Assembly: GCA_030407315.1 (NCBI GenBank) | Contig: JALQPE010001904.1 | Coordinates: 20,781-84,780 of the forward strand | Length of the DNA: 64,000 bases | Direction: 5' to 3' | Source: Asparagopsis taxiformis | Taxonomy: Eukaryota > Rhodophyta > Florideophyceae > Bonnemaisoniales > Bonnemaisoniaceae | In this document: in pieces, positions 26,387 through 64,000 of the stretch | Position numbering within the stretch: position 1 is the first letter of the stretch | Layout of the letters: each line of letters opens with the position of its first letter | Made by a program: the position numbers and the translations under genes | The notes under the pieces: generated by a model | Told to the model about the DNA's origin: nothing | Database searches by the model: none | The model's input: the letters and a program-made list of their open reading frames with translations, nothing else

Positions 26387-28560
26387 GACGGGAGATAGTT
26401 GTACGGGTGGCAGGGGGAAAGAAATGCAAAACCATGCGGGGTGAGCGTGGCGGAGGTGAGCGGTTGAGGACGGACAGATCTAGCAATGCAAAGTGGTGTG
26501 CAGGTCAAGGGAGTAGAGGTAAACGGAGCGGAGGCGAAGCGAGCAGAAGGGGATGGTGTGCTGTGCTGTGCAGTGCAGTGCAGACGAAAACAAAACAGTG
26601 CAGCGCAAGTGTGTGAATGAATATAGGGCGGGGCGGGGCGGGGCCTTGGAATCGCCGTGAAATGCAACAATGTGTTTGATGCTAGCTTGGGATTTTGCAA
26701 AAAAAATTAACGCAAATCCACGCAATCCTCTCGCAAACAACTCAAAATCGGACAAGATATTGTTGCTGTAGCGACGTGCGGCGCGGCGCGGCCCCGGTGC
26801 CAATTATTTTTCACACGCTTTTGCTTTGGCGCGCGCGCGCTGCGCGATCAGTGGAAACTGGACTGACACGCTGACCGACGAGCTGACAAATCACTTTGCA
26901 GTGAGAGGGGCACGACGACTCACACGCTGCGCTGCGCTGCGCTGTGCTGTGCTCAGCTGCGCCGCACCGCACCACACCACCCACCCTACAGTACCGCTGC
27001 GCTGTGCTGCCTGCCGCGCACCGTTAGGCCTACACGCGTACTCAACGTACTCTCGTTATGTGCGTGCGCGCGCGCCGCAAGCACAGCCGTGCCGTCGATT
27101 CGACACCCCCGCCTCGCCGATACATATAGCTGCCCCGCCCTGTGCGCCCATTTGCTCACGTAGATGCAAATGGAAACCGCGCCCTCACTGCGCGGCCCGT
27201 GTCCCTGTCTGTGTTGTTCGTACCTTACTCGCTCAATGTTGCCGCGCGCCCAAGCTCGAGCGAGCGCGTCGGGTCGCCAACTCAAGGTAACGCTCTACTC
27301 TGTCCTGTCCTGTCCTGTCCTGTTCTGCCCCACCCCACCCGATGCTACGCCATGCCATGCCGTGCCACGACCTCCATACGTTACACCTCTACTGATGAAG
27401 CAATGGTCAGCTTGCAGTCGACTAGCACGACCACACACACAGCTTAGAGTTGAAACTGACGACGCCTCATACAAATTATCGTATTTCACGATGGACCGCT
27501 CTCGTCATCTGTACACATCTCGTTTTGTACTGCAGCTGCGCAGCGAGTGCGGCCCGGAGCGAAATGGGCGGTACTGGCGTACAACTGACTGTACCGACCG
27601 ACCGACCGACGTGCGCTGCGCCGTTGATCGCGTGCACAAACGAAGGGCCGCTGTGCTGTGAGTGCTGTGCTGTGCAGTGCCCTGCAGTACTGTGCAGGGG
27701 TGAGGCGGGGGAGCGCTGCAGTGCACACTAGAGCAGTGCACTGCACTGCACTGCACTGCAGTCGATTCGACAGTTGCTCACTCGCACAAGATGTATGTTG
27801 CAAATGTCGTGTCAGACAGGGAGGCCAAAACATTCCGTCTACGTCGGCCATACAAAACGGAATGTCCGCCAAAACATGCCGCAGCGACGCTGTGCTGGCG
27901 CGTGTACATCACAAGTCGGCAGATGTTTGTCGTCCACTTGTCATACCCACGGGGACAAGGTGAATGAATGAACAAACCAACGAAAAAAAGCCTCCTCGCT
28001 TCGGCCCGTTGCACGAGCTGCCGGCCCTACATGGGCCCGTCTGCACGCGCATCGGTTGGTCGGCGACAACACGGCGTGCGCGCATGGGATTGACTGCAGC
28101 TGTAAGCAAACGTCGCCGAATGGCGTATTGTAAACACAGGCCTCAAGTGGACGGACCACACCGGACCGTCATCGATCGCGCCGATGAATTTGACGTAGCC
28201 TTGATTGGACCGTGTGCTTTGCGCGCGCTATGTGCCAAGCGAATCATCGCCGCACCGCCTGACTAGACTCGAGTCGTGCGCGCCGCCTTTTCTACTCGCC
28301 TCGGCTGTCAGCGCTGCATTCATTGCATTAGCTTTGCATGCAGCAGCACACAACCAATCATTGACCTCCATCTATTTTAAGTCGATACAACAACAAATTG
28401 TTCATCTGCCCCCGCCACGCCGCGCCGCGCTGCGCTGCACACCTTGTACGGTATGATACCATCTGTCACTGACGCTGTATGCGTATGATTCGATGAAACC
28501 GTAATTATTCTTCAACATTTCGTTCCGTTGGTCCATCACACAACTCGTTGCACCCTCTCG
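26387..28560. other. GC-rich low-complexity upstream region
   Basis: This follows the start of the polyglutamine gene on its upstream side. It has a GGGGC repeat run near 26625-26644 and many GCTGC, GTGCTGTGCTG and TGCACTGCAC stretches (26925-27010, 27295-27330, 27655-27770). Long frames exist but are Cys/Ala/Arg-rich translations of these repeats, so I call no gene. The GC-rich part next to 26386 probably includes the promoter of the minus-strand gene. Confidence 0.5.
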
Positions 28561-44465: not shown

Positions 44466-45761
44466 CGACCGGCGACAGCAATGCACGAACATTGCTGGCG
44501 CATGCGCGCGCGCAACCGGCACACGTGTGCAACGAACGTACTGGCAACGGCAAACGGACCAACGGGTCCCTACGTGCGACCCACAAGGTCCTTTCCCATT
44601 CGGGGACGTTACGAGCAGTGTTGACACTGTGAAGCGATGCCATCGTGGCTATATAGGTATTGGCATCGTGCCGGGAGGGAAAGGGGACAAGCATCAAGCA
44701 TCGAACGAGCAACGGCTCTAGTCTACGACTGACTTCTACGTTTACGTTTACGTTTTGCCTAACGAGGCTTCGTCTCCGTCGAGCTGCGCACTCCCTATCC
44801 ATCGCCACACGTGAGGCTGGTCGCGTGTAGTGCCTACGGGCTTGGTTGAGAGTACCTCCGGTGACGTGCCACCTCGTTTACCGAACGTAATCCTCGCGTG
44901 GATTGTTGCGTCGTGACGCTCGTGTCTACTCGCTAACTCTCTACTCTACCTTTCTACCTACCAATACAGTCAAAACACCAGCGGGTGGACTTATTCGTTT
45001 CGTTAAGGACAGCGTGTCCGTGGCTCGTACCAGCTACTTCTAGAACTAACGTTGTTCCACACTGGTCTCTCGACCTAGAAGTTGCTACGAGCATAACGAC
45101 AACCAACGAGGTTGAGCTCTTTTACGTTAACGAAAGCTACGTGCTACAGACTACGGTCTATGTGTGGAACAACGTTAGTTCTAGAAGTAGCTGGTACGAG
45201 CCACGGACACGCTGTCCTTAACGAAACGAATAAGTCCACCCGCTGGTGTTTTGACTGTATGTTTGGTAGCAGATAGAGGATAGGGTAGAGAATAGGTTAG
45301 CAGGTAGACACGGGCGTCACGACGAACGATCCACGCGTGGACTACGTTAACGAACGAGGTGGTACGTCACCGGAGGCGCTCTCAACTAAGCCCGTAGGCA
45401 CTACACGCGATCAGCCTCACGTGTGGCGATGGGTAGGGAGTACGCAGCTCGACGGAGACGAAGCCTCGTTAGGCGAAAACGTAATACGTAACGTAGAAGT
45501 CAGTCGTAGACTAGAGCACGTTGCCCGATCGTTGTCTTGTCCCCTTTCCCTCCCGGCACGATGCCAATACCTATATGGCCACGATGGCATCGCTTTACAG
45601 TGTAAACACTGTTCGTAACGTCCCCGAATGGGAAAGGACCTTGTGGGTCACACGTAGGGACCCGTTGGTCCGTTGGCCGTTGCCAGTACGTTCGTTGCAC
45701 ACGTGTGCCGGTTGCGCGCGCGCACGCGCCAGCAATGTTCGTGCATTGCTGTCGCCGGTCG
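44466..45761. repeat. 1.3-kb palindrome of two inverted LTR copies around a primer-binding site
   Basis: Left arm 44466-45062 and right arm 45162-45761 are inverted copies at roughly 90% identity, separated by 99 bp. The left arm ends CCACAC and is followed at once by TGGTCTCTCGACCTAGAA, the primer-binding site also used by the Ty3 element at 4597-4614, so each arm is an LTR with its 3' end facing the centre. Near that end both families share TTCTAGAACT. The remaining internal DNA is only about 80 bp. No coding region remains. The left end cuts the gene at 42837-44327. TG/CA outer ends and a target duplication were not identified. Confidence 0.85.
45063..45080 (+). other. Primer-binding site inside the palindrome
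   Basis: The 18 bases TGGTCTCTCGACCTAGAA are identical to the site of the Ty3 element at the window start and lie directly after an LTR arm. Identity between two unrelated-length LTRs argues for constraint by the same tRNA. Confidence 0.75.
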
Positions 45762-45891
45762 TCGTCTGTGTTTTCGGAAGTGGACGCGGACGTCCAGTCT
45801 CTCTAGTACGGGTCCTAGTCGGCCCCGAGATTTACTAGAACAAATGAACGTCCGCGTCCAAAAAAAAATAAAAATTTTTTGGATGCGGACG

Positions 45892-46106
45892 TCCACTTTC
45901 TCTAGTACATATGGCGGAATACTAGGACCCGACATCCACTTTCTCTAGTACATATGGCGGAATACTAGGACCCGACATCCACTTTCTCTAGTACGTTTGG
46001 CGGAATACTAGGACCCGACATCCACTTTCTCTAGTACGTTTGGCGGAATACTAGGACCCGACATCCACTTTCTCTAGTACATATGGCGCAATACTAGGGC
46101 CCGACA
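45892..46106 (+). repeat. 43-bp minisatellite, five copies
   Basis: Units start TCCACTTTCTCTAGTAC at 45892, 45935, 45978, 46021 and 46064, with a partial at 46107. Differences are few (ACATATGG against ACGTTTGG). An A/T-loop hairpin (GTCCGCGTCC..GGATGCGGAC) lies directly before it at 45849-45892, and a diverged unit near 45794. Confidence 0.95.
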
Positions 46107-46235
46107 TCCAGTATACAATATATCAGCGAAAACCGGGAGGGAAGAAATTACAGTAGATGGTAAATTCAGGGCCCATATCGGACCGTATTTTATTCTCTCA
46201 TTTAGGAAACTGCTCGTATACAATACGTCTCTCTA

Positions 46236-46379: not shown

Positions 46380-47237
46380 TCGTCGATCACCCATCTCCCT
46401 CACTATCGCGTTCTCCCTACCTTCCGAACGCCATGCACCACCATCCGCACATACTTCAAGAACCCTCACGACCTAGATTACAAAAATCCGCTCCTTCCCA
46501 ATTCCATCCCCGCTTTCCTCGACACCACCCCAGCCCATTAAATCATCAAGACATCAAACATGAACATGGTCAGCAAAATCTTACACCACTTGAAACCCAC
46601 TCTCACTTCTATCGTATGCCCGAAAATATACACATACCAGAAACACCTCACAGCTTCATTCCCCATCTTCCTACATCCCTTCTTCACTTTCCTTCAGTCC
46701 TGCCGTTCCTGCTTCACCACTCCTGCATCACTTACACAACATCAAAATCAACCACAACAGTCAGATTCAAAAGCAACGCTTACCACGACAGATATCCTAG
46801 AAACTCCCTTACTTACCTCTCCGAGAGGATGAGTGAATCATCCATCCTAAACACTGATTTCGGTATGCACAGAATGTACTTTCGAAACCAGAATCTGAAA
46901 ATTTTTTGATGTTGATTGACTAATCATAAGTTGATTGAATTGTGGCCAATGAGACGAAGACATTGACTGACTGAGTGGTATTGTGCTGACAGTTTCAAGT
47001 ATAACCCCACGTGTCCAGCAGTTAGCGAAACACATACACAGACGTCCGTCTCTGTGCAGCGGTCAATTTTTATGCCGCACAACGCAACGCGTCGACTAAA
47101 GTACAATGCAAACCGACGCATCATCGGAATACATTTTGCATCGATCCCGACCATATCAACTGCACAACAATCATGTTAAAACGATGCCAAACCGACGAAA
47201 GCAACGCCGCGTTATCGTTGGCTAGCGTGCAAGCACC

Positions 47238-48890
47238 ATGTTTTCCATCGCGGAAAGACTACAGCGGTACAGTTGTCCCGGCGACAATCTGCGCGTCGCA
47301 ACCGACATGTACGCCGCCGAGCAATTGTACGAGCGCTGCGTCGAGGAGCACAACCACATCGGAGCCATGTATCGTCTCGCAACCATTCTACGCGTCTCCG
47401 AAAACATGCACGACGGCCGACGCCCCATGCAACTGTCCCAACGCTGCGTCGATGAAGGCAACCATCCCGGCGCCATGTTCGATCTGGCACGCATGTATTC
47501 CGACGGTAAGTTCTCCGAGCAGGATTTCGTACGAGCCGTCGATCTGTATCAACGCGCCATACAACTAGACAACGACGTGTGCGCGATGTTCGAGCTGGCA
47601 ATGATCTATGACGTCGGCGAGAAAGACGTTCCAATGGACGTCTTGCGCGCGATGAACTATTATCAAATGAGCATTGACGTCGGCCAGCATCTGGAGCCAA
47701 TGTTCTGGCTCGCTCGATTACTCATCTCCGATATCATGCGGCCGAAACGCGATGTGTCGCGCTCAAAGCGTCTGTTCACCATGTATGTCGAGCGATGTGA
47801 AGAGACGATGCCGATTATCGAGATGTGCAACGAGCTGATGTACGGATCGTCCAATCTCCCACGAGACGCCGCACTAGCCGCGTGCTTGCTACAGGCATGC
47901 GTGGAACGATGGGACGAGTGTGATGCAATGATACCACTCGCGGAAATCCTTCTGAGCGGCGCTTCCGTTGTCGCCAGAGACGCCACGCGTGCGATACGTC
48001 TATGTGAACGAGCCGCCAGTGTTCGCTGGGAGTATTCACTATCAACGGCTGTGTTGGCGCGCAAAATCGCCTATGGATCATCGCAGATTCAGGCCAATGT
48101 GCAGCTCGCTGTGTATCTGTGTCAGATGAGTATTGCGAGGGGGAACGATGCGGCCGCTATGCTTACATTGTCTGAACTGCTGTTAAAGGGCGCTCCGGGC
48201 GTGGAAAAGGACGTGGATTGTGCGATGAATTTGGTGGATAGAGCTTTCGGAAGTGATTGTGTCAAGTTTCAGATGTCCAAGATTATACAGCTTGCAAACG
48301 ATATGGCACATGGAAAGGGCGGAATGGCGAGGAATCCGTCGTTTGCCGTTTTGTTGTTGGAGAAATGCATGAATATGAAGGATTTCAAATCTGAATCGAC
48401 ACTGGCTCTTGCGGATGTCGTGCTTCAAACGAAAGCAGTTTTGGATATTGAGCGGGGCATTCAACTATGTCGTCAGTTGGTTGGTTTGGAATCATATTGT
48501 GAAAAGCTCGAGGATCTTGCAGAGTCGATTGAATTTAGCGATGCGGGTAATGGTGCGCTCGTGATGCGTCTGTTGGAACTGTTCATCGACAGTAAACATG
48601 GCGCAGCCGCTATGGTTACACTTGCGGAATATCTCATCACTGGAGATATGGGCATTGCAAAGGACAGTGAACGTGCCGTATGGCTCTGTGAACGTGCGTT
48701 GGAGAAGAGCAGGGACTGTAGCGACAAAGTGGTCGGTATCGCAAAACAAATGGATTGTGCGAAATCGTGCAAGCCAACGGACACTGCACTCACGATTCGT
48801 CTATTACAAATCTGCGTCGACAAATCCAACAACACAGAGGCCATCGTCATGCTCGTCAAAATTACTGTGTTCAAACAAAGCGAATCGTAA
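47238..48890 (+). pseudogene. Sel1-like repeat protein, main part
   Basis: 550 codons from the ATG at 47238. The whole length is a run of about 14 units of 36-40 residues with the Sel1 pattern: LYERCVEEHNHIGAMYRLA, LSQRCVDEGNHPGAMFDLARMYSDG, LYQRAIQLDNDVCAMFELAMIYDVG, and so on, i.e. a Cys/Ala helix, a short turn, AM..LA and a Gly. Such solenoids hold protein partners together, often in the ER or in signalling. The unit-like stretch LKRCQTDESNAALSLASV at 47176-47230 is in another frame just upstream, and further units follow after the stop in a third frame, so the present ATG and stop do not mark the original ends. No signal peptide is visible. Confidence 0.7.
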
Positions 48891-49606
48891 CACGGACCAC
48901 GCACTACGGCTGTGCGGCAAACTAATCGATAGCGACGTGTCTTGCGACAGAGCGCTTCATCTCGCGGAGGAAATCGGCAAGGGTACGACGCGCGTCGCCA
49001 AAAACATGCCATTGTCCATAAGAATCTGCGAAATGTGCATGGAGAAATGAGACGATCCATGCGCGATCGAAACTGGCGTGGAAATCATGTGCGGTTCCAC
49101 AGAAGCTAGCGACGTAAATCGCGCAATCCGTCTCTGCGAACGCTATGTAAACAACAACATATGCTGCGAAATCATCTGCATCGCGCAAAAAATCTGCACC
49201 GAAACATCTCAATACGTACACAACCCATCCATATCGCAACGTCTACTAAACGTCTGCCTCAGCGAACGACACGACCTCTCCACCATATTCCTGCTCGCAC
49301 AAATCCTACTGCAAGGCGTACGCGGGGTTGCATGCGACCCCGCGCGCGCCATGCAGCTATGCGCGATGTGCATACGACACGACGTGTCGTACATCGCGCG
49401 GTTGCGACGCTTCGCGGGGCAACTCGGGCGTCAAAGCGGCGACAAGAAGCGTGTACATTTTGCGATCGCGCTGTGCGAGCGGGCGCTCGCGCACGCGGAC
49501 GACACGCGCGTCATGGTGCTTCTGGCCGAGCTGCTGATCCGTCTGGATTGCGAATTGCACGGAAGAAGTGATATTAGAGGCGAAACGACAAGCCGAAGGG
49601 CTTGGT
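48876..49606 (+). pseudogene. Sel1-like repeat protein, frameshifted remainder
   Basis: After the stop at 48890 Sel1 units continue in the next frame: DHALRLCGKLIDSDVSCDRALHLAEEIG (two helices), then a TGA at 49048-49050, then AIRLCERYVNNNICCEII, LLAQILLQGVRGVACDPARAMQLCAM and LCERALAHADDTRVMVLLAELLI. The units and composition match the part before, so this is the same gene with one inserted base and one stop. CpG content rises towards 49300-49500. Confidence 0.65.
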
Positions 49607-49948
49607 AATAGTGCTGTGTTTTATATTGCATCTGATATGTATAATCACGGGTGGAAGGGCGGAGAAACGGCGTCGATTCGTGCTTATCTGGCGACGAATG
49701 CGACGAAGAAAAGAATTTCAGAAGAGTTGAAGACAGTTCATTGGTTTAATCCAGAGGAGTTTGGAGTCAGTCAAGATGCAATGGGCATGTCGAGATTGGT
49801 AGACGCGGCAATGTGCGTGCAGGCGGATCGATTTGTTCATGCACTGCCGTCGAATTTTGGCAGTTGGGTAGCGGGGCAGAGGGCGGGCAAGGGGAAAGCA
49901 GAAACAAAGGTATTGAATTGCATGGATCAAAGCTTCATAGACCGATGA
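49547..49948 (+). pseudogene. Glycosyltransferase-like C-terminal fragment (fucosyltransferase type)
   Basis: A frame different from the Sel1 remainder shows EAKRQAEGLGNSAVFYIASDMY, about 40 residues of mixed sequence, then RLVDAAMCVQADRFVHALPS and NFGSWVAGQR. The order IASD, then a (V/L)D..MC..AD.FV block and a SNFS-like turn recalls the last third of GDP-fucose protein O-fucosyltransferase-like enzymes. It is too short to be an enzyme. Its upstream part is not in the window, and it is fused directly onto Sel1 sequence, so a rearrangement joined two gene pieces. Identification is by eye. Confidence 0.4.
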
Positions 49949-50594
49949 AGTAGCGCGGTTGGGTGGATGACAATCAACATTTTTGCAATGGCGGTCGGTT
50001 GAATTTTCCATCGACAGCATGGTTGCGAAATATATACTGAGCGGAGATCAGCGACATTATGGTTCCTGCACGGGCACTAGAGTTGGGATGTGGTCTCATT
50101 ACATGGACATCCTGACTCCTCACGTTTCCTCTTCGCAGCATGTCTAACATTGCTGCTGCGCAACTGCTATCTACACCACTTTTTATTGTTCAATTTCGGG
50201 ATAAAGCTGGTATACTTAGCGTACTGCGGTTACCACACAAGTCACACTGGACATGTGGGCTAATAGTCTAAGCCTAAGTAAAGTTGCGAATACGGTACTT
50301 CTGAGGACATGCTACACTACCATAATATATTAGGGTGTATGGGTATCTAGGAATGGGAATCTACTGGTGGATTGCGAGCTAAGACCTGCCTGCTCTGGCA
50401 AACAGAATTTCGGTGCATCAGATTCGCGCGCGCGAAGCGCGCGCCAGCGCGTAAAGGGAACTTGTACCAACACATAACCTTTCCTATACAAATGTAGCTT
50501 TGACCGGCACTTAATTAATCCACTCAAACACGTAGCCTCCATTTCCTCTCTCTCCCTTTATTCTATTCATAGCCGTGACTACATCTGTAATATG

Positions 50595-52498
50595 CTATTC
50601 CATGTAGTGAGCTCCGAGGGTAACCAGAAATCCCATGAACGAAACTTGCACAAGTAGTGGTCGTAACGCATATAGTTCAGTTCTTGCACCCTTGGTATAA
50701 CCGTAGCAGTTCTCGATCACATGTATTCCATCATTTGTAACAGCCTCTGTTGATAGTTTTGCATACATTGCGGACGTGTCCCGGAATTGATCTGCTTCAC
50801 GCTCAATTTGCAATCTCCAAGTCGACTGGTCGGACGATGTCAGAGCATAACAGCGGCATTCTAATATGGTGCTATTATTTTCTCGATGTCTTGCGATCAG
50901 GCAAGTCATGCTTCCGACTAGTTGTTGCAGAGCATTGCCGATTTCGTTGAGAATATCCTCAGGGAAAACAAGCCCTAGCTCCAGCGAAGAAGCAAATCGA
51001 GGCACGCTAATGTCTTAATATCCAATTCCGTAGCAGCTAGACATGCACGCATTTCTAGCTTCGCAAGATCCCGAGCAAATCGCCATGAAAGTACGGAACG
51101 CGTCTGCAGCAAGATCATATCGACCCAGATCTCTTAGCTGCACAGCAGATAGCTGGGCAACCTTCTGCGGAATATGATGGAGATGCGAAAGATGCAGTGT
51201 TGACGAATAGTGTGCATCGGAATTGTACAATGGATGAGCAGGGTGTGGGTCGGTAGATTCGGTGTAAGCGGGCATGAGTTTTGAGCTTGTGGTATAATTA
51301 GGACGCGAATAGCCCGAGATGGCATATCGTTGGGTTGCACAAGCGCATGTGTGTCTGTGAAGTGCAACGCGGCAGTCTAGATTATCTGTGATGTTGAAGT
51401 TGTGAAGCGGAGCGGGTGCAAACGTGTGTTGAGGAGTAGTAAGTGATTGCTGCTGATTGTAGACTCTGACGACATTGGAAGGGCATGATCAAGTAGCGCA
51501 GAGCTATGGGTCCGAGAAAATTGAACTTGTCCTTGAGCTGCAGGACTGCGCCTTTCTTCAGAACCGTTTTGCGCATACTGTTTTGGAGCCTCAGTTTCCG
51601 CAGATATTTGACTCTGATTTCCACTAGTAGTACCTTTTTCAAAATACAATGGAGAGTCTGTAGACTCTCCAAACAGAGCGTCTACCGGCAATTTTTAGTT
51701 CATAGTCGGTAGCGTTGCTTAGACTCTCACATTGCAGCTTTTGTGCATAGAGCTGTGGTTGGTACTCAGAATTCGGGTGATGCCCAGCATGTAATTCATT
51801 CGCCAGAGATGGTTGATAAGAAAGCGGACCGTGCTCCCTTCCCAGAGCTGTTCCAAACAGTCCTTGTAAATGCAGCCGTGATATTTTCTTAGGGTCTCTT
51901 CCCAGGGATTCAGGTTGCTGACTAGAGCTTAAACAGTATGCAATGAGCTGAGACATTTTTTGTCGTGCAGCAGCATGTTACCTTGCCAGTTCTAGTAGAT
52001 CGGATCGCCTGAGCGACACCACAGAAGCTTGCAGCGTATGAGTACCAGATTTTCTGGCAGGATAAGGCAGTTCCCAGTCGAGCCGATGTATTCATAGATG
52101 CAACCGCGAGTTAGTAGGGCGCGGAGAGTTTGTCTTGTTTGCATACCACCTCGCAAATTTTGCGAAGCTGAGGACTCTGCAAACTTCCGTTGCTCCAGCA
52201 CATTGTAGTGAATCGTCTGCGCCTTTCGACAGCGGTTTGATGGGCTATGCATCGGTAATTGATTTGTCTGAAAATTCTTTTGCACATTGTTTGGTTGAGG
52301 AGCCACTTGGTTTTGCTGCATTCGCTTTATCAACACGCTTGCCTGTGGTTCTTTCAGTATCAGCAGGGAGTTTGTCAAATGTTGTTGATGCGCTAGCCGG
52401 GCTTCTTGTGGCTGTACATTTTGCTGACCGACAGGACTTGATTGTGGTTGAACCATTCTAGTACCATGCTGCTGCGAGAAGCTTCTATTCTGCGACAT
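50595..52498 (-). pseudogene. Glutamine-rich protein, decayed
   Basis: The upstream block 52498-51992 (ATG, MSQNRSFSQQHG) is rich in Gln, Pro and Asn. Blocks 51956-51639, 51691-51377, 51275-51015 and 51005-50595 follow on the same strand in alternating frames; the last two are one frame with a TAA at 51015. The C-terminal blocks look like folded helical protein (VAQLSAVQLRDLGRYDLAADAF, and later ILNEIGNALQQLVGSMTCL). Introns may explain some steps, but the stop inside a good frame indicates decay. A transcription-coactivator-like layout is possible; no domain was recognised. Confidence 0.4.
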
Positions 52499-54234
52499 CT
52501 GTTACGCATTTCATGCGTAATGAATGAAGGATTGACTGACGGTTGATAGCGGCTCCGGATGAGTTCTGGCTGGAGTAGTATTCAAATGAAGCCAGAGGTT
52601 CACATGAAGGCGGAAGTCCACATCAGTACGTTTGGTTGTGGGCGAGCGACGGAGGTCTATTTTGCTTCTACGCTTTTGGCTTTTGGCAGCGACGCGCGAA
52701 AGCGATGCTGCGCCCCGTATCGTATGCACGCTTAGTAAGCGCTTATGGGTAGCAGACTGTGCAATTTTCAAGTGAATTCCAACGAGTCCGCCAGTCGTTA
52801 CACAGCCTCCCCTTCCACTTCTGTCCGATAGGAGCCCCCATGTACATCACGTTTTCGCCGAGCAGTTTAGTGTTGGCTTTTAATGTATTCCAGTTGGACA
52901 GAGGCAGTTGCTGTAGCAACGCGCTGGATGTATTCATGGTACAGACCTTATGCAAGATCAGCATGTGAGTGTCCGTCAATTAAAAGATCCAGTTGAGGAA
53001 TTGCTCTGCACAACTCGATCACTGAGGTGATTTACTGCGATGACGGGGCAGATGCAGCCAATGGTTGAGAGCATTAAGTGGTTCAACACGCAAATGAAAT
53101 CGTCATTAATCAAGCCCGTCGACGGATGAAACGCGCGAAAAAATTGTTAGCAGTGCCACAATTTTGATAACGCATAGACTCAGAGCGTGATCGCAACGAT
53201 GCGCCCAGAATCCGTGAGGGGGAAATGGATGAGTAGGAATGTGTATCGGGATTCAGAGTCGCAGATCGATATTGTTAGAAGTAGGAAAGAACAAACCGTC
53301 AATGATAGAGAAGGGAGCGCGCAAACCATACTTTGATGAATGCGAGCGGAAGGAGGTTGGTACATCATCTCGTGGATATTGTGGAGGGAGGTGTTGAAGA
53401 GTGTGCGTCGACGTTCTGACACATTGCGAGAGACCCTTAATAGTAATCAAAACTTGTAAATATAAAAATGTGCACCACGTGGCGCCATATGCAATTGTAT
53501 GGAAAAATGTGCGTTCATCTCTCGCTTCGCTGCCTCAACTGGCCTTGCGTGCTTACTGAAAGCTCAGACCACTGGTTCCCATCGTCCTCGAGCCCGACTC
53601 GTCATCTTTGCTCTCCATATTATCACCCTTTCTTGATCCTCTCCTCTACATTGCAATTCGTCTGGTGAAACCGCACACAACGGAACATGCCACCAGACCT
53701 AGACCTGGACTGCAACCCTGCCCATCCTCTTCCCTATTTCCCAACTCACGAGCACTACCCTCAATCCTCGATGAACTAGATGCGCCAGCACACCACGATG
53801 GTGGCAATGGTCTGTGCGAGTCCTAAACCAGTCCTCCCGTCCGCCCTGACGTGACTTCCCTTGGAATGCGTCTCATGTTACTCGCATTCAACGCACAAAT
53901 TCATCCTCTAACGCTTCTCCGCGACCAAGACGCACCAAATCGCGACAATGTACTTCGCGTTCGTTGCGCGTGGTGTCGGCACTTTCTCGCCCATCGCGAC
54001 GCGTCACAATCGCGCTTTCGTCACCACGTACCACAAAGCCCCCGCATCCTTCAACGCCCTTTTCTGCGTGCGATCCCTGGGTGTGAACATTCCGCGCATA
54101 TTCATGAATAGCACCTTATTTACTACGTTCAGTTTGCCATGAACTGTTCCAATAGCGATGCGTTCGCCAGACAACAATTGCATGCATCAATGCATGTCAA
54201 ATTTGACACACAATAGAATGGTCTCCGCAATATA
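52499..54234. other. Intergenic, nothing recognised
   Basis: Short frames on both strands with no recognisable content. Pyrimidine-rich at 53500-53830. Confidence 0.4.
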
Positions 54235-54801
54235 TTAGACTTCGCTCGCAACGGTTCTCAACGTGGCATCATTATGTTTGATGTTATGGTCACTTAGCTT
54301 CTTGAGATTACATATGACCAATTTGAACGGCTCTTGACATTCAATAATTGTTGATCTTCTGAATCCAACGATAGTCAGTGCCCAGTTGCATCGCCTCATC
54401 TGTCCTATCCGTACAAACAAGAGGCCATAAGACGTTTTCCTCCACGTAACATTCAGCGATTTCATTGTCGCATCGTGTCTATTGAATATCGTAATCCTGC
54501 GTATTCTTAAACTCCTCTCCATTACTCTCCAGCATTCGACCATACCACGTGAATATCTGCGTCTACTTTCTCGCCAACCTTCGCCTACATCAAGCACCAG
54601 GTCATGAACGCCCAATCCGTACCACTTACTACCCGCACCGCCCACCTCCCTATCAGTGGTCACTAGGCAGTTGTTCTCCAGCATGCCTACAATCGCCTTG
54701 ATCTCTTCCTTGCACACGCACCATATCCTCCGCAGTGTGTCCATGGGAATGTCGGTTCGTCTCCTCACGACGTAACAATGAGCGGAACACGTCGGGTGCA
54801 C
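54235..54801 (-). pseudogene. NB-ARC-type ATPase fragment, winged-helix end
   Basis: A 188-residue frame starting at a non-ATG codon. It contains TDIPMDTLRRIW, then a helix EEIKAIVGMLENNCLV, a short charged strand and WYGLGVHDLVLDV. This is the order of the winged-helix part of NB-ARC proteins: (I/V)P...L..LW, a helix ending in .L...SL(V/L), then Y.(L)HDL..D. NB-ARC ATPases act as switch modules in innate-immune-like signalling, and red algae encode them with TPR or WD repeats. The P-loop and Walker B parts upstream are missing, and what follows HDL is unlike TPRs. Probably a relic. Confidence 0.45.
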
Positions 54802-54961
54802 TTAGTTGTCTGCAGTGCAGATAGACGCACAGTGTGACTCTGAGTGTAGCTACCGGAACAGGTGGGAAGGAAATAGACACGTTTTATCGTTTGAATTGTA
54901 TTCAGTATATAGAAGGGATAGAAGATGAGATATTTTCTTTCTTTGTCTCATGCGAAAGTTA

Positions 54962-56176
54962 CTATTTGTCCATAGTGAATCGTAGCAGACCTTCTTTGAT
55001 ACGTGTTATGTCCTCTGCAAGAATTGTTTTGTCATCAGACAAGTTTTTGAATGTCGTTAGTATAGACGATGCGGCAATTTCCGATGTCCAGGGAGAATCT
55101 GCTCCACTGTTTGTGAGCCTATTAAGATTTTTGTACTTGCTTTTGTACGTATCGTCTCCCTCTCTTCCGTACCACGCAACAATCAATCCCGAAAATGATT
55201 TGTTTTCAGTATGATGAGAAACAATTCTGGCTAGCCAGAATGGTTCTTTTGAATCACATTGGTCTCCAACTACGGCCACGAAGTGGTCTCTGATGTATAC
55301 ATGATCCATGAAATTACTTTCAAGAGTTGTCTGCACAATAGGATGTGCTAATGAGTCACTATTTGGTGGAGTGCAGACTGTTATTGGTCGTATCATTGTC
55401 CTCATTGAGCGCTGGTGACGACTTCCAGTTGTCAAAGATGGAATACCTCTCCTACGACCCTGCATCCATCTCGAAAATCGAAATGCGACACTCAAAAACT
55501 CATAACAGACTTCTAGACCCTGATACACCAGAACTTTTTCCCCTTTTCTATTCAAAGCTGCCATTTTGTTCAAAGCATTTCCACGCACGTCCTCGCTTCC
55601 GCGTAGTAAAACCTTTGCGTCTTCTCTTAGCTTTTGTAAGTCCATCTTAGCAAAGCAGCTCTGGCCACCGCGAGGAGAACAGCACTTCCAGTTTTTCGGA
55701 TCATTGGAGAGTAAATCCTGCAGTCTTCTTTTCCGATTTGTAAGGACATTGGCTGGGGTCTTTCGGTGACGATCAATATTCCGTTTTGTAACGATGTGCG
55801 CAGTCACCGGTACGGTTGACCTAACAGCGGGGTGATTTGGATTTACAAGCGCAATGGGAGATGTGGGACGTACTGGGCTTGGTGAGGGCGGCGCGGAAGG
55901 TGCTGGAGAAGGAAATATGTGCTCTGAAATTGTACGTGATGAGGATGCCGCCTCAGAATTTGGTGTTCGATGTCCAGGTGATGAATCTCGGATATTTTGG
56001 GTCAAATTTTGGATTGATTTTCTTGTCAGAAATGACTTCCGTGGAGCTTTTGAGGCAGTTGTTTTCCGAGCTCTGGAAGCAGTATTGCGAGGAGCTTTTG
56101 TGGCCCTCTGCTTCCGAACAAGGTTTTCACGTGCAGATACACTTCTGCGACCTGAGCGTCTTGGTTTTGTCGACAT
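54962..56176 (-). CDS. Core-less relative of the neighbouring transposase (404 aa)
   Basis: An intact frame from the ATG at 56176. Residues 1-80 are strongly basic (Arg/Lys/Ser, KAPRNTASRARKTT), nuclear-signal-like, then a Pro/Ser linker. Residues about 165-245 (CCSPRGGQSCF, then ALNKMAALNRKG, VCYEFLSVAFRFSR) match the start of the transposase at 61148-63812 (KKKCFQNVDL, VCYRFLELCFKFSR). Residues about 295-400 (DHFVAVVGDQCDSKEPFWLARI, LIVAWYGREG, ILAEDITRIKEGL) match its end (NHFVAVNGEGCTAKQPFWLGQI, LIVRWYEVCG). The roughly 450-residue catalytic middle is missing. Loss of the core with an undamaged frame suggests a maintained DNA- or chromatin-binding protein: a repressor, a titrating factor or a domesticated gene. 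It points away from the methyltransferase gene, about 1 kb off. Confidence 0.75.
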   Translation of the reverse strand: MSTKPRRSGRRSVSARENLVRKQRATKAPRNTASRARKTTASKAPRKSFLTRKSIQNLTQNIRDSSPGHRTPNSEAASSSRTISEHIFPSPAPSAPPSPSPVRPTSPIALVNPNHPAVRSTVPVTAHIVTKRNIDRHRKTPANVLTNRKRRLQDLLSNDPKNWKCCSPRGGQSCFAKMDLQKLREDAKVLLRGSEDVRGNALNKMAALNRKGEKVLVYQGLEVCYEFLSVAFRFSRWMQGRRRGIPSLTTGSRHQRSMRTMIRPITVCTPPNSDSLAHPIVQTTLESNFMDHVYIRDHFVAVVGDQCDSKEPFWLARIVSHHTENKSFSGLIVAWYGREGDDTYKSKYKNLNRLTNSGADSPWTSEIAASSILTTFKNLSDDKTILAEDITRIKEGLLRFTMDK

Positions 56177-57222
56177 GTTGTTCTTTCAACGCAATGGATT
56201 AGGATATCGACAAGTTGTTCGATGTTTTCAGCTACCACTTCGACTCGAGGTTGTACAGTTGATAGCTAGTATGCGAAAGGGAATGATTATTAATCCACTC
56301 ATATCGATCTTCCTTTAAATGAAAGTAGTGGTAGTGAGAACCGCGCTGTATATCTAAATTGAATTGTTCTTTACTCTACTTCTAAGTATAGATTCCACCA
56401 CTCCTGTGGAAGGATATTTTACACACTTGCTTAGCTCGGAAACAAATATCATCCGTACAGCCTCATTGACCTATTCACAGATATTGATATTCGGATGAAT
56501 AGCTGGAAGATGTTCCAAACACGTGTCTCCTTAGAACGCATGTGTATGGATAGCAACAGATAATATCTATCATACGTACCCTTCTCAGTGAAGCTGACAG
56601 GTGAATGTATAAGCTGGTTTTGTACTGGTTTTTCTGTAGCGAATCAGATTTTTCAAATTGTGAATCATTTTGACTGTAAATACTACTGTGTATAGATTCA
56701 CCGGGCCAGTAATATGATCATACTGATATTGATGAAATACAAATATTTTGCTCCTCTCATTGACACATATGTGAAACCCTAAATTCAACTGCATAACACC
56801 TGTGGTTCAATTCCTGTGTTACACAGAGGCTTTAGCCACTCTTGTGATCAGCAACCCCTGATATCCTTTAATCAAATAGTCTTTTGTGTATTTACGTTCT
56901 GTTCCGTGCAATTCTGGTGTGTTGTATGATTAGCTGTGGTTGATGAAATAGTAGCGTTTGGAGAAAGAAGAGCTTATCGTCAGAGTTGAGAAGGGATGAC
57001 GTTAACATATTTGAATGGGCCAGGAGATATAGGAATGGATCCAATCAATTATTGGATGAAACTAGTCGTTTCTTAGAACAAAACAAATTACAAAATACTC
57101 CACTTCTGGGTAATGTTGATATTTCCTAGCTAGCCGCCGAGTAAGTATCAGAACTGCCAGATTATCCTCTTGGTTCTTACGGGGATTTGCAAAATTTACT
57201 TGGCTACGAAATTCATTTGGCT
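56177..57222. other. Divergent spacer between core-less relative and ParB-methyltransferase
   Basis: AT-rich, no supported gene. It holds the promoters of two divergent genes if both belong to one unit. No clear shared inverted or direct repeat with 63813-64000 was seen. Confidence 0.45.
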
Positions 57223-58568
57223 ATGAAGGGGAAGAACTTAAGGAACTCTTCGATGAGAACCCCTCATTCTAGTGTCAACCAGAATGCATCAACACCTCTT
57301 TTCTCCGACGTTATGGAGGGGTCTGTTAACACTCGTGTAGACCCACATGCTTGTATTCCTCTAACCTGCGTAAGAGATCTTGTTCGTTCTGGAGTTGATA
57401 GACTCAAATGTGTATTTGGAAACAAATTTCGAATCGTTCGGGCGTTGCTTTTGACCTCAATTCTGGTGGTGGATTTGTGGCTGGTTCTGATAATGCCGTT
57501 GTTGTTGCCTTGACAGGTGGATTGAAAAGACACGTTGTAGACCACTTCAAAACTGGTCCTCATAACAACCGGCATCCAATGTCGGAATCACAAGCGAAAG
57601 AGAAGGAAGAGTCTCGAGCTGTCTGGTATGGGGTAGTAGACGGAATGCACAGGCTTACGGCTATCCTGGAGCTCATGGAAGAAAATCCGGAAACGTGGGA
57701 GTCATTTCTCTGGCCGGTTACAGTCCTCAAAGGTGGCCAAAATCTACAGGTTCTTAGACAACTCGGAAGACACCAGAACAACAAGCACAACTCCGCTTTC
57801 TACATTGAAACAACATTCTATGATATGCTTTCTGGCCTCCGGAAAGAGGCTGATCGTCTCAAAAGTATGAAGAATGGGAAGCAACCAACAGCTAAAGAAA
57901 TTGCCTCTGCCTTTGACGGCTGCACTCATCTCAAGGACAATACCACAAAGCAAACAGCAGCGACTTCAGTCCGTCTTCCAGTTTCGGTAATTGAGGAGAT
58001 TGGTCATATCATGAACTCTGAGCACCCAGAACTGACTGCGTCAGAATCAGATCGTTCTGGTAGGACCTCGCACATTTCTGGACTGGTTGACTTTCGGGTC
58101 TACCGGAACTTCATCAACATTACTACTATTAAGTCTGCAACAAACTTCATGAATGCCAGTGGAGCAGACTCTGAACAAAACCAGATAAATACGCTGTATA
58201 GACTTCGTGATGTGTGCAGAATGAACAAGTTCAAACCTGTCTCATATAAAATTGCTGCAGAACAGTATGTCAAGGCCTGTTCTGCAATGAGTGAGGCAAG
58301 GAAGTTCGAATTACTCATAGAAAGTGAATCATGGCCGGCTGGAATGGAAGTAACCAGAACAAATTTGCTCCAATCATCTAAACTCGATGAGGAAGTTACT
58401 GCAAATTCTGGAAATGACCATGACATCTTAAAAACTCTTCTTCACCAGTACAGAAAGATATGTCCCGAAACTGCTCCACTAAAAGAGCGAAAGTACTCTG
58501 AAGCTCACTCAATGGAGGTCAAAGATGGAACAGAGACTGATTCAGAAAATTGTGATGGAAAAATTTAG
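57223..58568 (+). pseudogene. ParB/sulfiredoxin-fold domain part of a ParB-methyltransferase gene
   Basis: The ATG at 57223 (MKGKNLRNSS) opens a frame with ACIPLTCVRDLVRSGVDRLK, like the first strand of ParB-type domains. The frame changes near 57420-57450 and goes on in the frame that ends at 58568. There WYGVVDGMHRLTAILELM carries the G-x-H-R box of ParB-fold proteins (usual form: VDGxHRxxA), followed by VTVLKGG and RHQNNKHNSAFYIET. In bacteria and phages such domains bind or cut DNA and are often fused ahead of a DNA methyltransferase. The C-terminal part is helical, then acidic (DGTETDSENCDG). At about 58556 one lost base in an A-run moves to the methyltransferase frame, so both were probably one protein. 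Confidence 0.65.
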
Positions 58569-60111
58569 CCTGTACGGGAACGGAATCGGAAGAACAAATT
58601 ATAGAAAAGAATCGGAGCATACATACAGACACTTCTGTTATACAGTCAGGCAAGGAACCCTTGCCAGAGAAAGTTGTGAACACCAATTCAAATGCAGACC
58701 AGTATACTGAGCAAGTTGATTCAAACTCGCCTAGAAGTGCTCAGAATGATGTCGACCTGGAAAAATACCAGAACAATAAGATTTCAGGAAAACACACAAA
58801 TCCCCCTGTCTCGAGTGCTAACTCTGAACGCCTGAATACAAGAAAGAAAGGATCTGAAAGCTTCGCCCTTGAGGAAGACAAGACTGACTATTTGAAGGAG
58901 ATGAAGATAAGCTGTCATCAAATGAAATGGCAACTGTTTGATAAGACTGTATGGACAGATGAATCTGAGCTTTTTGACATGATTCTCACTGATCCGCCAT
59001 ATGGAACACCGAAATCCACCTCGGTTCGGTCTGCTTCTTATGACAACTTCATAGGAGATGATGAGATCAAAGCGGTTTGTCAGTTTGCTAGAAGAGTGTT
59101 GAAACCCGGTGGATGGTTTTTTTCCTTTGTCTCATTCCGGAACTTCGAGAAATTCTACGATGAGCTCAGAAAAATCGGATTCGTTGGACCAGAATACCCG
59201 TATGTGATGATGAAAGATACGAAAACAGTCCAGCACCACAGGGGTAACGACGTTCCCCAGAACGGGTGTGACTTCGCAGTACTGGCTAGGGCTCCAGGAA
59301 CAAGAAGAGATGGTTTCAAACCAGATCTTTCCAGTCCATATAATTTCATTCCCTCAAAAGAGAAAAGGAAGTTCGCTGCTCTCTCTAGCATTCCAGTTTC
59401 AAAGGAGAAGCTTCTAAAGCCAGGTTCAAAATCTCCAGTTCTCACTGAGGAGAAGAACATTGGACTTCTTGCTGAGATAATAACTACTTTCTCACCAGAA
59501 CGAGGTAACATTCTGGATATGTACGCTGGTACATTTACGTCAGCCATTGCTTCGCTTCGAACCGCACGGTCTTGCACTGTAGTGGAATCTAGCGCAAATA
59601 CGTTCCGCCTAGCTCACGAAAGGCTTCGTCTTGTGGCCCAAATTTTCTATCAGGAAGCGGAGAAAAACCAGTGCTTCACGAAGAAAAGAAAGATTGATCC
59701 AAATCTGGTGAAAGATACTACGGCTTCCGAAGATCACTGCAAAATCACAGGGAGTCCCAGGCGGAAAAGGGAATGGATGAATCTTCATGTGTGGTCAAAG
59801 GTGGAGATAGAGCACTTCTTCTTATAGGGGATGTAGTTGTCGGTAGCGCAACTATACAGAACCCGACAATTCCGGAGGAGATGTTCTGTTTTTCGATACA
59901 CAACAGTCCTCTTGCCAATTTCCAAAGAGTCAATGAACAGTTGGTTTCATGTTACGCTTTCCAAGTGCTACCAGAAGCTAAAAGTATCAAATACCCCTAC
60001 AAATACGGCGGCATCGAAACACCGCCGGAAACACTTGGTGGAATAGAGGGATTTTTCGCTTGGGATGCTCGAAGAATGAAATCTATTGATTCTACAGAAC
60101 GAGCTGCATGA
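58558..60111 (+). pseudogene. Beta-class DNA amino-methyltransferase (DPPY), bacterial type
   Basis: The main frame ends at 59827. After a hydrophilic linker it has FDMILTDPPYG (motif IV, catalytic, residues about 105-115 counted from 58661), FARRVLKPGGWFFSFV, a target-recognition-like middle, then ITTFSPERGNILDMYAGTFTSAIA (motif I, SAM binding, about 273-297) and ARSCTVVESSANTFRLAHERL. Motif IV before motif I is the permuted beta-class order of N6-adenine or N4-cytosine DNA methyltransferases. Motif I reads DMYAGT rather than the common DPFxGSGT. A frame from about 59773 to 60111 (DRALLLIGDVVVGSA) looks like the natural C-terminus after one more lost base. The family is prokaryotic and phage-borne; acquisition by transfer is inferred. 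Which base is modified cannot be decided. Confidence 0.8.
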
Positions 60112-61147
60112 GAAATCGGAAATTTCATCTTTAGTTTCTTTGAAATCAGATCTAGAGGGTGCAAAGACATCAAACTTCATTTGATACTTCCCGTTCTAGT
60201 ACCAAGCCTCGCACACTGAAATGATCATTCTTTCAAGATTAGAATCACTGCCACTATCGAATTCACACCAGATTCAGGTGCCAGGTTCTACAATTGACTC
60301 CTCATCGATAGTAACAAAGAAGAACGCCTTTTCACTCCATGGCAGGCAAGTAATAGTCCTGTCTCAACCCGGGATAGAGTGATTTCTTCCCTCTAGATAT
60401 ACATACCTACTCTCCTATGTGTCCAGAGGCTCCTGGTTTGGGAGAGAAAAACATGACCAGTACTACATGAACATAGGAAGATGGGACCGATCATTCAGAA
60501 TATGGAAAACTTTTGAGAAACGATTCACAAATTATGAATGGTTGAACGCAGTCTCGTACTCAGCAGCTGGTTGATTCTTTAAGAAGGTAGCGCTTTCTGC
60601 CGACCAGCTAGATAAAATTTTAAGTGATAAATTGATACTAACATGCACACCACAGATTTGCGAACGTATAAGACCGGCTGGTGCACCATCACAGAAACAG
60701 TTCAGTGTGCTAAAGGGGCTTTTCGATAGCATCAGAATTCTTTAAAACGTTCAACAGCAGCAGATACGCACTGTGGCAGAATTCTTGACGTGCCAGAATC
60801 ATACCGTTTCACTGATTTCCTCCTGAAGGTAAGATTTCTTCTGCAAGGCTTGCAATTTAATTTAACTCCAACAGATCAACATGTAAGTGATTGAAGGAGT
60901 GCTCTGGAAATTTTGGCGGCAGTTGATGAATATGGTCCCCTTATCTACCAGAATACAAACATGTACATTTCATAGATTTCCTCATTCGTTCTAGGAACCT
61001 TTTCTCACACCCAAAGTTTCCTCGTGTCTTTTTTTCTTGCTGAAAACCGCAGATGCCTGTGAAAGAATCTATCGTTTCTCTTTCCAATTAATCTGCAAGC
61101 ACGTCATTCCTGTCTCTCCAGCCCTTTCCCGCAGTGCAAATCGAAAT
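60112..61147. other. Spacer between methyltransferase and transposase genes
   Basis: About 1 kb without a supported gene; frames are short on both strands. It should contain the 3' end of one gene and the promoter of the next. Confidence 0.4.
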
Positions 61148-63812
61148 ATGGGAACAAAAGAACCACTTCCTAAAGACGTACGGGAACAAATGAGAGTCCA
61201 CGCAGAGATCATTGTCTCTTCCCTTTCAAGATGTATGAAATGTGATTATGAGGTGAAATCTCATCCTGAGACGCCCCAGAATATCGCTGACGTTTCAGAA
61301 CCCAACTTCAATTCTGGAAAACATACCGATGACAAGCTCAGAAACCACAGGAATAACCGACTTCTTCCAGAGAAACCAAAACAATCTTTAGTGAGCCCAA
61401 GCAGATCAGCTACTTTGTTTCCTTCCAAATCTGGATTTGTGCAATCAAATTTGCTACGATGGTTTGATTCTGCTTCCAAGAGTTCTGCTAGTTCTTGTGG
61501 AAACCACAATCGACAAGAATCAAATTCTCGCACGACCAATACATCGTACTCGCTGGAGACAGAATGTCCGCAACAAACTAACCTCCCATTCCGACAAGCT
61601 AAAACAGTCTCCGAAAACGCATCACCTTCTATGCTCAAGAAGCGAAAAACATACCAAAGTCAAGAACGGAGCAATAAATCAGGCAGAGAAAGCGAAATGA
61701 AAAAACGTAGGAAGAACATCGCTTCCACAGTTTCAGTATCCCGCTTAGCAGGGAACAAGTGCTGTTCAAAAAAAAGTGCTTCCAGAATGTTGACCTCATA
61801 TTCCTCCAGAATGAAGCATTTCGGGTATTGCAATGGGATCAAGAGAAACGACGTACCTATCTCCACAGCCTTCTTGAACCAAACTCGAATGTTTTCCACT
61901 TTTCAGGCATACCTGTCTGCTACAGGTTTCTAGAGCTATGTTTCAAGTTTTCAAGATCACTGCAAAGTTCTGTCAAGAGTAGGCGGGTTCTTTCTCTTCT
62001 ATCCAATCCCAGGGATTTTAAATCAAAACAGAGAGACGCAGTTGTTTGCTTTCTTGATAGGCTTTCGGAGTCTACAGGAGACAGAATGCCCGATAACAAC
62101 GAGAGGCACTTGCCATTATTCCAAAAGAAGGCTGTTTACGAAATGTTTCGAAGTCAACACAAGATTCTTTACCCTAGCCAGAATGTACCATCTCTGAGCT
62201 ATTTTTACTCTACATGGAAAACTTTTTGCAGTCATGTGAAAGTAAGACGCGTTCAGCGGTTTACCAAGTGCACAGAATGTGAATATATCCGGGATTCGCT
62301 GGCCAAGTTCGGGTCAGATCCCTCCAAAGCTGAACCATTGGTATCGAGAAGGAAAACTCACATCGAAATGGTTGCGAGAGAGAGAAGAGAGTACCAAAGT
62401 AAATGCGAGCAGGCTGCATTATTTCCATCCCAGTTTACTTCAATGATTATCGATGGAGCGGACCAGTCTGGTTACGGTCTGCCCCATTTCACGGTGAACA
62501 CCAAGGCAACAAATGGGCACAGTCTGAAAGTCAAACTGGTTGGTGTTCTAGAACACGGCGTAAGGAAACACCTTTCTCTGTATACGATGACATCAGAGTT
62601 TGAGACAGGTGCAAATCACATTATTGAATGCTTGCACCGCACACTCCAGAGGAAGTCAACAGGATCGTCATTACAGGGTACACTCTACCTCCAGGTGGAT
62701 AACTGTACCCGCGAAAACAAGAACCGATTCTTATTCTGTTATTTAGAATCACTGGTTGCATGGGGAGTTTTCAAAGAAGTGTACATTTCCTTCCTTCCCG
62801 TCGGACATACTCACTCAGATATTGATCAAGCATTTAGTTGTACATCTCGTCGTTTGCGTTCGAACAATGCAGTAACGATGGAAGATCTCATGCACGAGTT
62901 GCGTCAATCATACACACCAGAGCCCTCAGTTTCTAGACTGCTTCACATCGCTAACTTCTCGGGGCTCTGTAAGGAGCAGAGTTCTATCAGTAACGTGGAA
63001 AATTTTTCAAAGTATCGCTACTTCCGGTTTTTCAGATGCAATCATCGTTCTGGTCGGACTATGACTGATTCTGGTCATGGAAAAATGTATTTCATAACTG
63101 CATGCGAGTGCAAAGTGTTTTGCAATGACCAATGGGAGGAACTTCAGGCAAAACCAGCAGGTGTTCGAGGATTTACAATCCGTCCTCCTGATCTTTGCAT
63201 GACCCCTGGAACGAAAACGTTTTCTCCTCCGAATAGAAAAGAGGTCTTGGAACGTCTGCGGTCTGAGGAGACTAGAATAAACAGTCCATCCAAATTACAG
63301 GAACTTTATGAGTTGACGGAACATGTATACAATGAGAGAACTGAAACATTTCATTGGAATTTACAGGTTTGCTTCGAGTACAATGGCATATATCGCCCAA
63401 ATGCCCGAAGTTTACAATGGAATGAAGATCATGATGAAAGTGAGCAGCGCTTTGAAGACAATGATGAGCCGTTGAGTAATCTTAGCTATTCAATTAATCA
63501 TTTTGTAGCTGTCAATGGTGAGGGTTGTACTGCGAAACAGCCATTCTGGTTGGGACAAATACTTGAATGCAAGAGAAATACAGGGGGTGTCATCAACACA
63601 TTAATAGTGAGGTGGTATGAAGTTTGTGGATCAGGGAACGCATGGAACGGGAGATACTCACCAGCAACTCTGGTCAAGGGAATTCAAGGAAAGAATGGAA
63701 GGGTCTCATATCGGTTGATTCTGTTATAGCCGAATTTCCTTCACTAACAAACAAAAGACTTAGAGCTGGGGTAGAAAGAGAGATAAGATCCGGGCTTGCT
63801 TCGCTTCAGTGA
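61148..63812 (+). pseudogene. Large transposase-like protein (DUF7869-type), two frame changes
   Basis: The ATG at 61148 (MGTKEPLPKD) opens a basic, Ser-rich N-terminal region. At an A8 run (about 61770-61777) the frame steps back one base, and the main frame goes on to 63729. It begins KKKCFQNVDL, then VCYRFLELCFKFSR, a Cys pair KCTEC, and an Asp series: MIIDGADQSG, LYLQVDNCTRENKN and LPVGHTHSDIDQAF. This trio is typical of a widespread transposon-associated family (Pfam DUF7869, from memory), probably an RNase H-fold transposase. The C-terminal NHFVAVNGEGCTAKQPFWLGQI domain resembles BAH/chromo-like readers. A second step near 63690 leads to a frame ending at 63812 whose SVIAEFPSLT..IRSGL matches the end of the core-less relative, so 63812 is the better end. 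Both steps may be lost bases or recoding. Confidence 0.7.
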
Positions 63813-64000
63813 TATTTTGTTAAAAGTTTACTACGCCTCTTGCCATTCAACCAAAATTTATCAGAACAGTAGATCAATCAACTTATTCTCATTCAGATAT
63901 AGTCAGTCAACTTGGAGTAGTAATTTTGTATTCAATCATTTTTGAAAATTTAAAATTCTGTTCCAAAAGTACATTCTGTTACCACTCAAATCAGTGTTCC
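63813..64000. other. AT-rich window end
   Basis: AT-rich, no gene. I compared it by eye with 56177-57222 in both orientations and saw no terminal inverted repeat. Confidence 0.4.

Follow-up and report, generated by a model that had tools for sequence, protein, structure and literature searches.

A giant DNA transposon of the red alga Asparagopsis taxiformis carrying a ParB-like/DNA methyltransferase fusion gene next to a predicted DUF7869 transposase

Introduction

What does a DNA methyltransferase of bacterial type do beside a transposase gene in a red alga? The question is raised by a 64,000-nucleotide stretch of the Asparagopsis taxiformis genome (assembly GCA_030407315.1, contig JALQPE010001904.1, positions 20,781 to 84,780), here called the window, in which an earlier, sequence-only reading had noticed a GVVDGMHR box of ParB type, a DPPY...DMYAGT methyltransferase and a transposase. 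All three are present, on the forward strand. We consider it very likely that they belong to a giant cut-and-paste (DDD) DNA transposon with the anatomy described below, and the explanation of the whole that we find best, with reasonable though far from full confidence, is a DDD transposon whose ParB-like/methyltransferase fusion protein methylates the element's own DNA. The kind of element is already known; added here are the partnership with a DUF7869 protein, the same-strand arrangement of the two genes and its persistence over six subfamilies.

Extent, ends and copies of the element

The element had first been placed at 57223–63812, a span that proved to be the right third of a longer one. 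Its structural features are as follows:

46850–63998, forward strand: whole transposon, 17,149 bp, with edges set where the matches of other copies stop
46850–46905, forward strand: left terminal inverted repeat, starting AACACTGATTT
63945–63998, reverse strand: right terminal inverted repeat, terminating in AAATCAGTGTT
46846–46849, no strand: left target duplication CCTA; on the right side CC alone (63999–64000), then the contig end
46913–46974, forward strand: left subterminal TGAYTGA repeats, 4 copies at positions 64, 83, 115 and 119 from the end, all inside its outermost 125 bp
63874–63938, reverse strand: right subterminal TGAYTGA repeats, 3 copies at positions 61, 90 and 119 from the end, spaced by 29 bp

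Among the genome contigs, 18 of 41 matches to window 46800–49800 start at 46849–46850, and 20 of 40 matches to window 61500–63999 (the window copy counted) stop at 63998–63999. The two terminal inverted repeats are 78.6% identical over 56 columns (E=7e-5 against the whole window), with a Smith-Waterman score of 32 against a maximum of 16 among 200 shuffles. The terminal 11 bp of the right repeat also terminate a copy of subfamily B (C348; subfamilies are defined below), and AACACTGATTT together with an inner ACAGAATRTAYTTT-like block is common to both ends and to the right end of another subfamily, with 61% identity between the DUF7869 proteins. Target duplications of 4 bp were also found at C1919 (TTCA), C90 (AGGT) and, in a rearranged locus, C1837 (GTAG); at C902 a TAGA duplication adjoins a damaged right end. 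The TGAYTGA motif, which was picked post hoc from the alignment, has 7 of its 12 occurrences in the element within 200 bp of an end, and in subfamily B it lies at positions 62 and 91 from the right end, nearly as in the window copy.

The window copy, C90, C1919, C1667 and C902 each have left end, fusion gene, DUF7869 gene and right end on a single contig; C90 and C1667 have a common right flank and may be one insertion. Copy counts throughout include haplotype duplicates and do not equal numbers of independent insertions. The shared ends, the 4-bp duplications and the linked DDD protein bear out the earlier identification of a eukaryotic DNA transposon. Many intact copies with unlike flanks differ by few bases, some of them being haplotype duplicates; such near-identity between differently placed copies suggests recent movement.

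The left part varies among copies. Among the six listed matches to window 46850–57400, those of C1910 and C1579 start at window 49376–49383, that of C2114 at 50571 and that of C2267 at 52964; the C1782 match starts at the start of its own contig, and the C2441 match spans window 48480–55328. A left end near 55.4 kb had been considered because the stretches where C2267 and C1910 were expected to have their left ends did not match. It was dropped: C2267 is broken at window 52964 by another repeat, and 18 other matches start at 46849–46850.

Several observations concern the make-up of other copies. At the break in C2267 lies, exactly and in inverted orientation, a piece of a minisatellite that also occurs just left of the element in the window, where an element with 226-nt inverted arms (97%; 44466–45761) is followed by this 43-bp minisatellite (45763–46220). 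A further 17 of the 41 matches to the left 3 kb start sharply at window 47007, with 96–98% identity, and there seems to be a second element family behind these starts, with the same Sel1 region and another end. In C145, C589 and C2663, left ends 96–97% identical to that of the window are followed 10, 19 and 24 kb along the contig by a ParB-like domain that is 64% identical; judging from this mismatch, the elements may be chimaeric, swapping left and right parts. The stretch C481:29393–43386 holds four ParB-like domains about 4.3 kb apart, each with one TGA inside, and is best read as a tandem array of element pieces. Likewise C1837:12589–61058 has a single left end, several pieces and a pair of right ends that share their flank; by this layout it is a rearranged or duplicated copy.

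The fusion gene

57223–60111, forward strand: ParB-like/methyltransferase fusion gene, frameshifted here into open reading frames (ORFs) 57402–58565, 58556–59824 and 59698–60111
57402–58565, forward strand: ParB-like part, with the box W[YF]G[VI]VDG[ML][HF]R at 57624–57653 (WYGVVDGMHR in the window copy)
58556–59824, forward strand: beta-class amino-methyltransferase domain, in which motif IV (DPPY) precedes motif I (DMYAGT)

The ParB-like and methyltransferase parts are a single gene rather than two: copies almost identical to that of the window have them in one ORF, which at locus L062 runs for 963 aa from its ATG (L062:1306–4197). Stop-to-stop frames of the fusion measure 987–1027 aa in many other copies and are shorter in others. 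Compared over 7 kb, the window copy and the C2267 copy show 2 mismatches and 13 indel columns, and the former sits at the very end of its contig; because the differences from this near-identical copy are mostly indels, and because of the position at the contig end, its frameshifts may be assembly errors. Genome-wide, at least 99 methyltransferase places and at least 106 ParB-domain places were matched, and an ORF of more than 600 aa with both boxes was found at 50 loci, which correspond to 33 places and 29 distinct DNA sequences.

The methyltransferase half is clearly a beta-class N6A/N4C enzyme. It matches Pfam N6_N4_Mtase (PF01555) with E=3e-11, scoring 44.1 bits where the cut-off is 26.7, and PHROG_67 DNA methyltransferase with E=7e-20; motif IV stands before motif I, the fold is a Rossmann fold, and for the fusion the listed Foldseek and VIA matches are methyltransferases.

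Behind the label ParB-like stand an invariant VDG box and sub-threshold profile matches, and we use it in that qualified sense. A box of the DG.HR type of the ParB/sulfiredoxin-like superfamily is present; its W, G, second V, D, G and R are invariant in all nine covering sequences (10 aligned, query included), and its H is found in eight of the nine. Over the box, the window ORF gave sub-threshold matches to GmrSD_N (0.026) and to the PHROG 'ParB-like partition protein' (0.14). Seven N-terminal pieces were searched, and all of their matches stayed below cut-off: DndB for three of the seven (best 0.00099), GmrSD_N for three (best 0.024) and PHROG ParB-like for three (best 0.0067). The ParB-like part had no relevant match among PDB sequences at E up to 10. 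The N-terminal alignment (A3) comprises seven of the ten rows of the alignment A1, omitting P0007, which is without the region, P0002 and P0008.

The proposal as first put needs qualifying in two points. Of the profiles proposed for searching, N6_N4_Mtase and DUF7869 gave clear matches, and the ParB type gave sub-threshold ones, so that ParB membership has weaker backing. Moreover, a ParB-methyltransferase on a eukaryotic transposon, held to be undescribed, is in print as the Ectocarpus Sola1 case (excerpt of PMC12477816).

The DUF7869 transposase

61711–63812 (ORF 61711–63729), forward strand: DUF7869 transposase gene, with frame shifts near the end in the window copy and a provisional ORF start

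This ORF matches the Pfam DUF7869 profile with E=1e-53. Candidate catalytic aspartate codons lie at about 62452, 62698 and 62818/62824, and D123, D205, D245 and D247 (numbering of the L062 protein) are invariant in all 49 DUF7869 proteins aligned, in agreement with the Asp-series transposase suspected at first. In the structural model the protein has an RNase-H/DDE-like fold followed by a C-terminal BAH-like domain; with this predicted RNase H topology and the invariant D-D-D, DUF7869 qualifies as a DDE/D transposase. The VIA rows for DUF7869 contain no transposon superfamily by which to classify it, an absence that proves nothing.

Linkage, subfamilies and selection

Does the pairing of the two genes recur? 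Linkage in further copies had been named beforehand as one of the points on which the sequence-only reading would stand or fall, and on this point it stands. Of 99 methyltransferase places, scored out of 2430 candidates, 71 have a DUF7869 match on the same strand within 0–6 kb downstream, and the complete set of parts with both ends recurs in the four further contigs named above. The control arrangements gave 0 of 99 upstream on the same strand and 0 of 99 on the opposite strand within 8 kb. Some of the 28 places without a listed DUF7869 partner are near contig ends, and some may be true separations. Seen from the other gene, DUF7869 matches occupy at least 118 places, pooled from two DUF7869 queries; in the list from the first query, 22 of 66 are without a listed methyltransferase or ParB match upstream. 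Within a subfamily the gap between fusion and DUF7869 is nearly constant, mostly 1.1–1.2 kb or 2.0 kb in that first list. Six subfamilies, A to F, were grouped by eye according to identity to the window methyltransferase, from 100% down to about 55%, and each has linked examples.

This pattern bears on whether the ParB-methyltransferase might be part of a nested element, for example of Plavaka/EnSpm type, whose insertion brought it next to DUF7869. According to the excerpt of PMC12477816, giant EnSpm elements that bear accessory genes are reported from red algae, and giant elements often contain nested insertions; this genome has at least 123 Plavaka matches. However, no listed Plavaka match (123) comes within 10 kb of any of the 99 listed methyltransferase places, whereas 71 of these have DUF7869 within 6 kb; the gap is near-constant per subfamily, and the two genes are enclosed by the same ends. 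No fusion copy with ends and duplications of its own was seen inside a DUF7869 element, no search having been aimed at such copies. Nesting is thus a very improbable account of the pairing. The Plavaka matches, 123 scored out of 1208 candidates, are themselves of note, since many lie in 1036–1037-aa frames and represent a second large transposon family.

The ratio of nonsynonymous to synonymous changes per site (pN/pS) was computed with one locus per place, which took in 33 of the 50 loci where an ORF of more than 600 aa has both boxes; the other 17 repeat places already included. Within subfamily A the median was 0.42 (range 0.12–0.55; from the 42 of 78 pairs that had 10 changes or more), within B 0.32 (10 of 55 pairs) and within C 0.38 (range 0.14–0.71; 28 of 28 pairs); between subfamilies the medians were 0.26–0.39, with silent sites saturated. 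These substitution ratios indicate that the fusion has been held under purifying selection.

A further possibility is that the fusion is passenger cargo, a captured host or bacterial gene with no role in transposition. The element does bear other gene pieces, with matches to Sel1 (E=1e-22) and to glycosyltransferase family 41 (E=6e-22), and giant algal elements are reported to bear accessory genes (excerpt of PMC12477816). Against this, the orientation of the fusion and its short distance upstream of DUF7869 are kept in all six subfamilies seen, and the gene evolves under constraint; we regard the cargo explanation as improbable. A single case could not separate cargo from machinery, but a pairing kept across subfamilies, intact beside broken copies, makes the question testable.

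Relatives beyond this genome

In a search of 5.8 billion proteins, with the 7992 best candidates scored, the fusion had 15 relatives by profile and nine by single sequence at E=0.001; of the 15, the one with the weakest match spans 23% of the query and has methyltransferase domains. Relatives of DUF7869 are far more numerous, 263, of which the best 120 were listed. Four fusion relatives (P0001, P0004, P0006 and P0131) match four DUF7869 proteins (P0015, P0018, P0023 and P0026) in source and contig size (7926, 8748, 7140 and 8751 bases). Because both agree for each pair, fusion and DUF7869 apparently occur together on four environmental contigs. The remaining 11 fusion relatives have no such counterpart among the 120 listed. 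Profile matches and copy number rule out chance ORFs.

The bacterial type of the methyltransferase invites the thought that the locus is bacterial or phage contamination, and the assembly does include a contig with a typical bacterial ParB. Yet the gene occurs on many contigs, between transposon ends and with unlike flanks, a diversity that refutes contamination. Viral contigs held no relative of the fusion and none of DUF7869, and the three phage matches cover the methyltransferase part only, at 23–26% identity; by the same evidence a phage or viral origin of the whole is ruled out. We therefore give contamination practically no credence. The ParB contig (C1526) is probably bacterial: its match (L001, C1526:7582–7839) resembles an ordinary bacterial ParB and is the only one listed for PF02195 in the assembly.

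Comparison with known systems

The closest described case is Sola1-1_Ec32 of Ectocarpus, for which the excerpt of PMC12477816 reports a ParB-like/methyltransferase protein of 1104 aa, encoded within a Sola1 transposon of 21.5 kb on the strand opposite to the transposase, with self-modification as the proposed function. Our element resembles it in having a ParB-like plus N4C/N6A methyltransferase fusion of about 1000–1100 aa, in being a giant algal DNA transposon and in the role proposed. As in accessory proteins of the Ectocarpus type, both domains stand in one protein of about 1000 aa (963 aa) coded within a DDE-type DNA transposon, here with the ParB-like part sub-threshold by profile. In contrast, the fusion lies on the same strand as DUF7869 and upstream of it, in a red alga and in six subfamilies; the two systems were compared by description only. 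The same excerpt cites similar transposon proteins for green and red algae (Iyer, Abhiman and Aravind 2011; Petroll et al. 2025, Bostrychia), and the red-algal case of Petroll et al. 2025 could be this very family. We found no account of DUF7869 by name among open-licence papers, and no report there of a ParB-methyltransferase paired with it. The claim that this particular pairing is undescribed holds to that extent; Petroll et al. 2025 could contain it.

Sola transposons, with regard to Sola2, are described as having a DDD transposase, 4-bp target duplications, variable inverted repeats and sizes that may be more than 15 kb (excerpt of PMC10741241); a second source likewise gives 4-bp duplications for Sola2 (excerpt of PMC3627910). 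The 4-bp duplications and DDD transposase found here recall Sola, especially Sola2, a likeness at the level of description; DUF7869 is a Pfam family of unknown function. Zisupton (KDZ) elements make 8-bp duplications (excerpt of PMC12730594), against 4 bp here. The same source gives C(2)C and H(3-4)H motifs between the second and third catalytic residues for Plavaka/EnSpm (CMCT) transposases; none of the 49 DUF7869 proteins has them, and Pfam Plavaka is not among the 14 families that these proteins match at E 0.1, though the profile does match at least 123 other places in the genome. TET/JBP dioxygenases, carried by fungal KDZ, EnSpm, Plavaka and other transposons (excerpt of PMC12730594), are a parallel in being transposon-borne DNA-modification enzymes thought to aid escape from silencing and to have moved between superfamilies, but they act on methylcytosine and are not amino-methyltransferases of bacterial type. 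Compared with the beta-class enzymes M1.HpyAVI, MboIIA, M.BceJIV, CcrM and rotifer N4CMT, the domain studied here differs in its attachments, a long ParB-like half on the N-terminal side and an extension on the C-terminal side.

Proposed role

Methylation of the element's own DNA is, on the domain content, the likeliest role of the fusion, and we hold it with some confidence. DUF7869 would cut and join the element ends, while the fusion would bind element DNA by means of its ParB-like domain and of the helical region that follows, and would methylate bases there. The DPPY motif indicates the N6 of adenine as target, and adenine at N6 is for this reason the probable substrate. The mark would then either keep the element expressed or license transposition. 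In some bacterial transposons, transposition is controlled by the methylation state of the ends; such control is rather unlikely here, though worth keeping in view. A permissive or anti-silencing mark, to which we give a little less than an even chance, is slightly preferred, and adenine methylation has been linked with permissive chromatin across eukaryotes (PMC12695648, by its title).

The fusion might instead be a restriction-modification-like or self-protection device directed against a host or rival nuclease and not against silencing. Modification of own DNA would be common to both ideas, but no endonuclease was recognised among the scanned ORFs of the element, and PADLOC had no match for any of the seven N-terminal pieces, so that we see little likelihood in it. 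More speculatively, and with considerable doubt, the element could represent a lineage with its own epigenetic circuit: a ParB-like adenine methyltransferase as writer at the subterminal sites, a BAH-bearing DUF7869 (DDD) protein of a class not described as a superfamily, and a transposase derivative without catalytic core as likely regulator. Should the element indeed mark itself, red-algal N6-methyladenine (6mA) or N4-methylcytosine might in part be made by a transposon, a point of interest for the dispute over where eukaryotic 6mA comes from and what it does.

Other genes and neighbouring sequences

54962–56185, reverse strand: 407-aa ORF, a divergent DUF7869 paralogue without catalytic domain
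47226–48890, forward strand: Sel1-repeat ORF, within the common left 3 kb
50595–51014, reverse strand: gene fragment of glycosyltransferase family 41 (OGT-like; Pfam Glyco_transf_41)

The 407-aa ORF aligns with DUF7869 in two collinear BLASTP segments, an N-terminal and a C-terminal piece (31% and 46%), and with alignment A2 over the C-terminal domain (hhalign probability 98.2, E 5e-14); a regulatory function of its product is plausible. Outside the element, strong GC skew was seen at window 12001–14000 and 28001–30000 (+0.245 and -0.297). Elsewhere in the assembly, contig C469 carries 11 of 13 phycobilisome-family matches, one of which recurs 177,170 bases on; by these features the host is taken for a red alga, with a plastid genome of probably about 177 kb.

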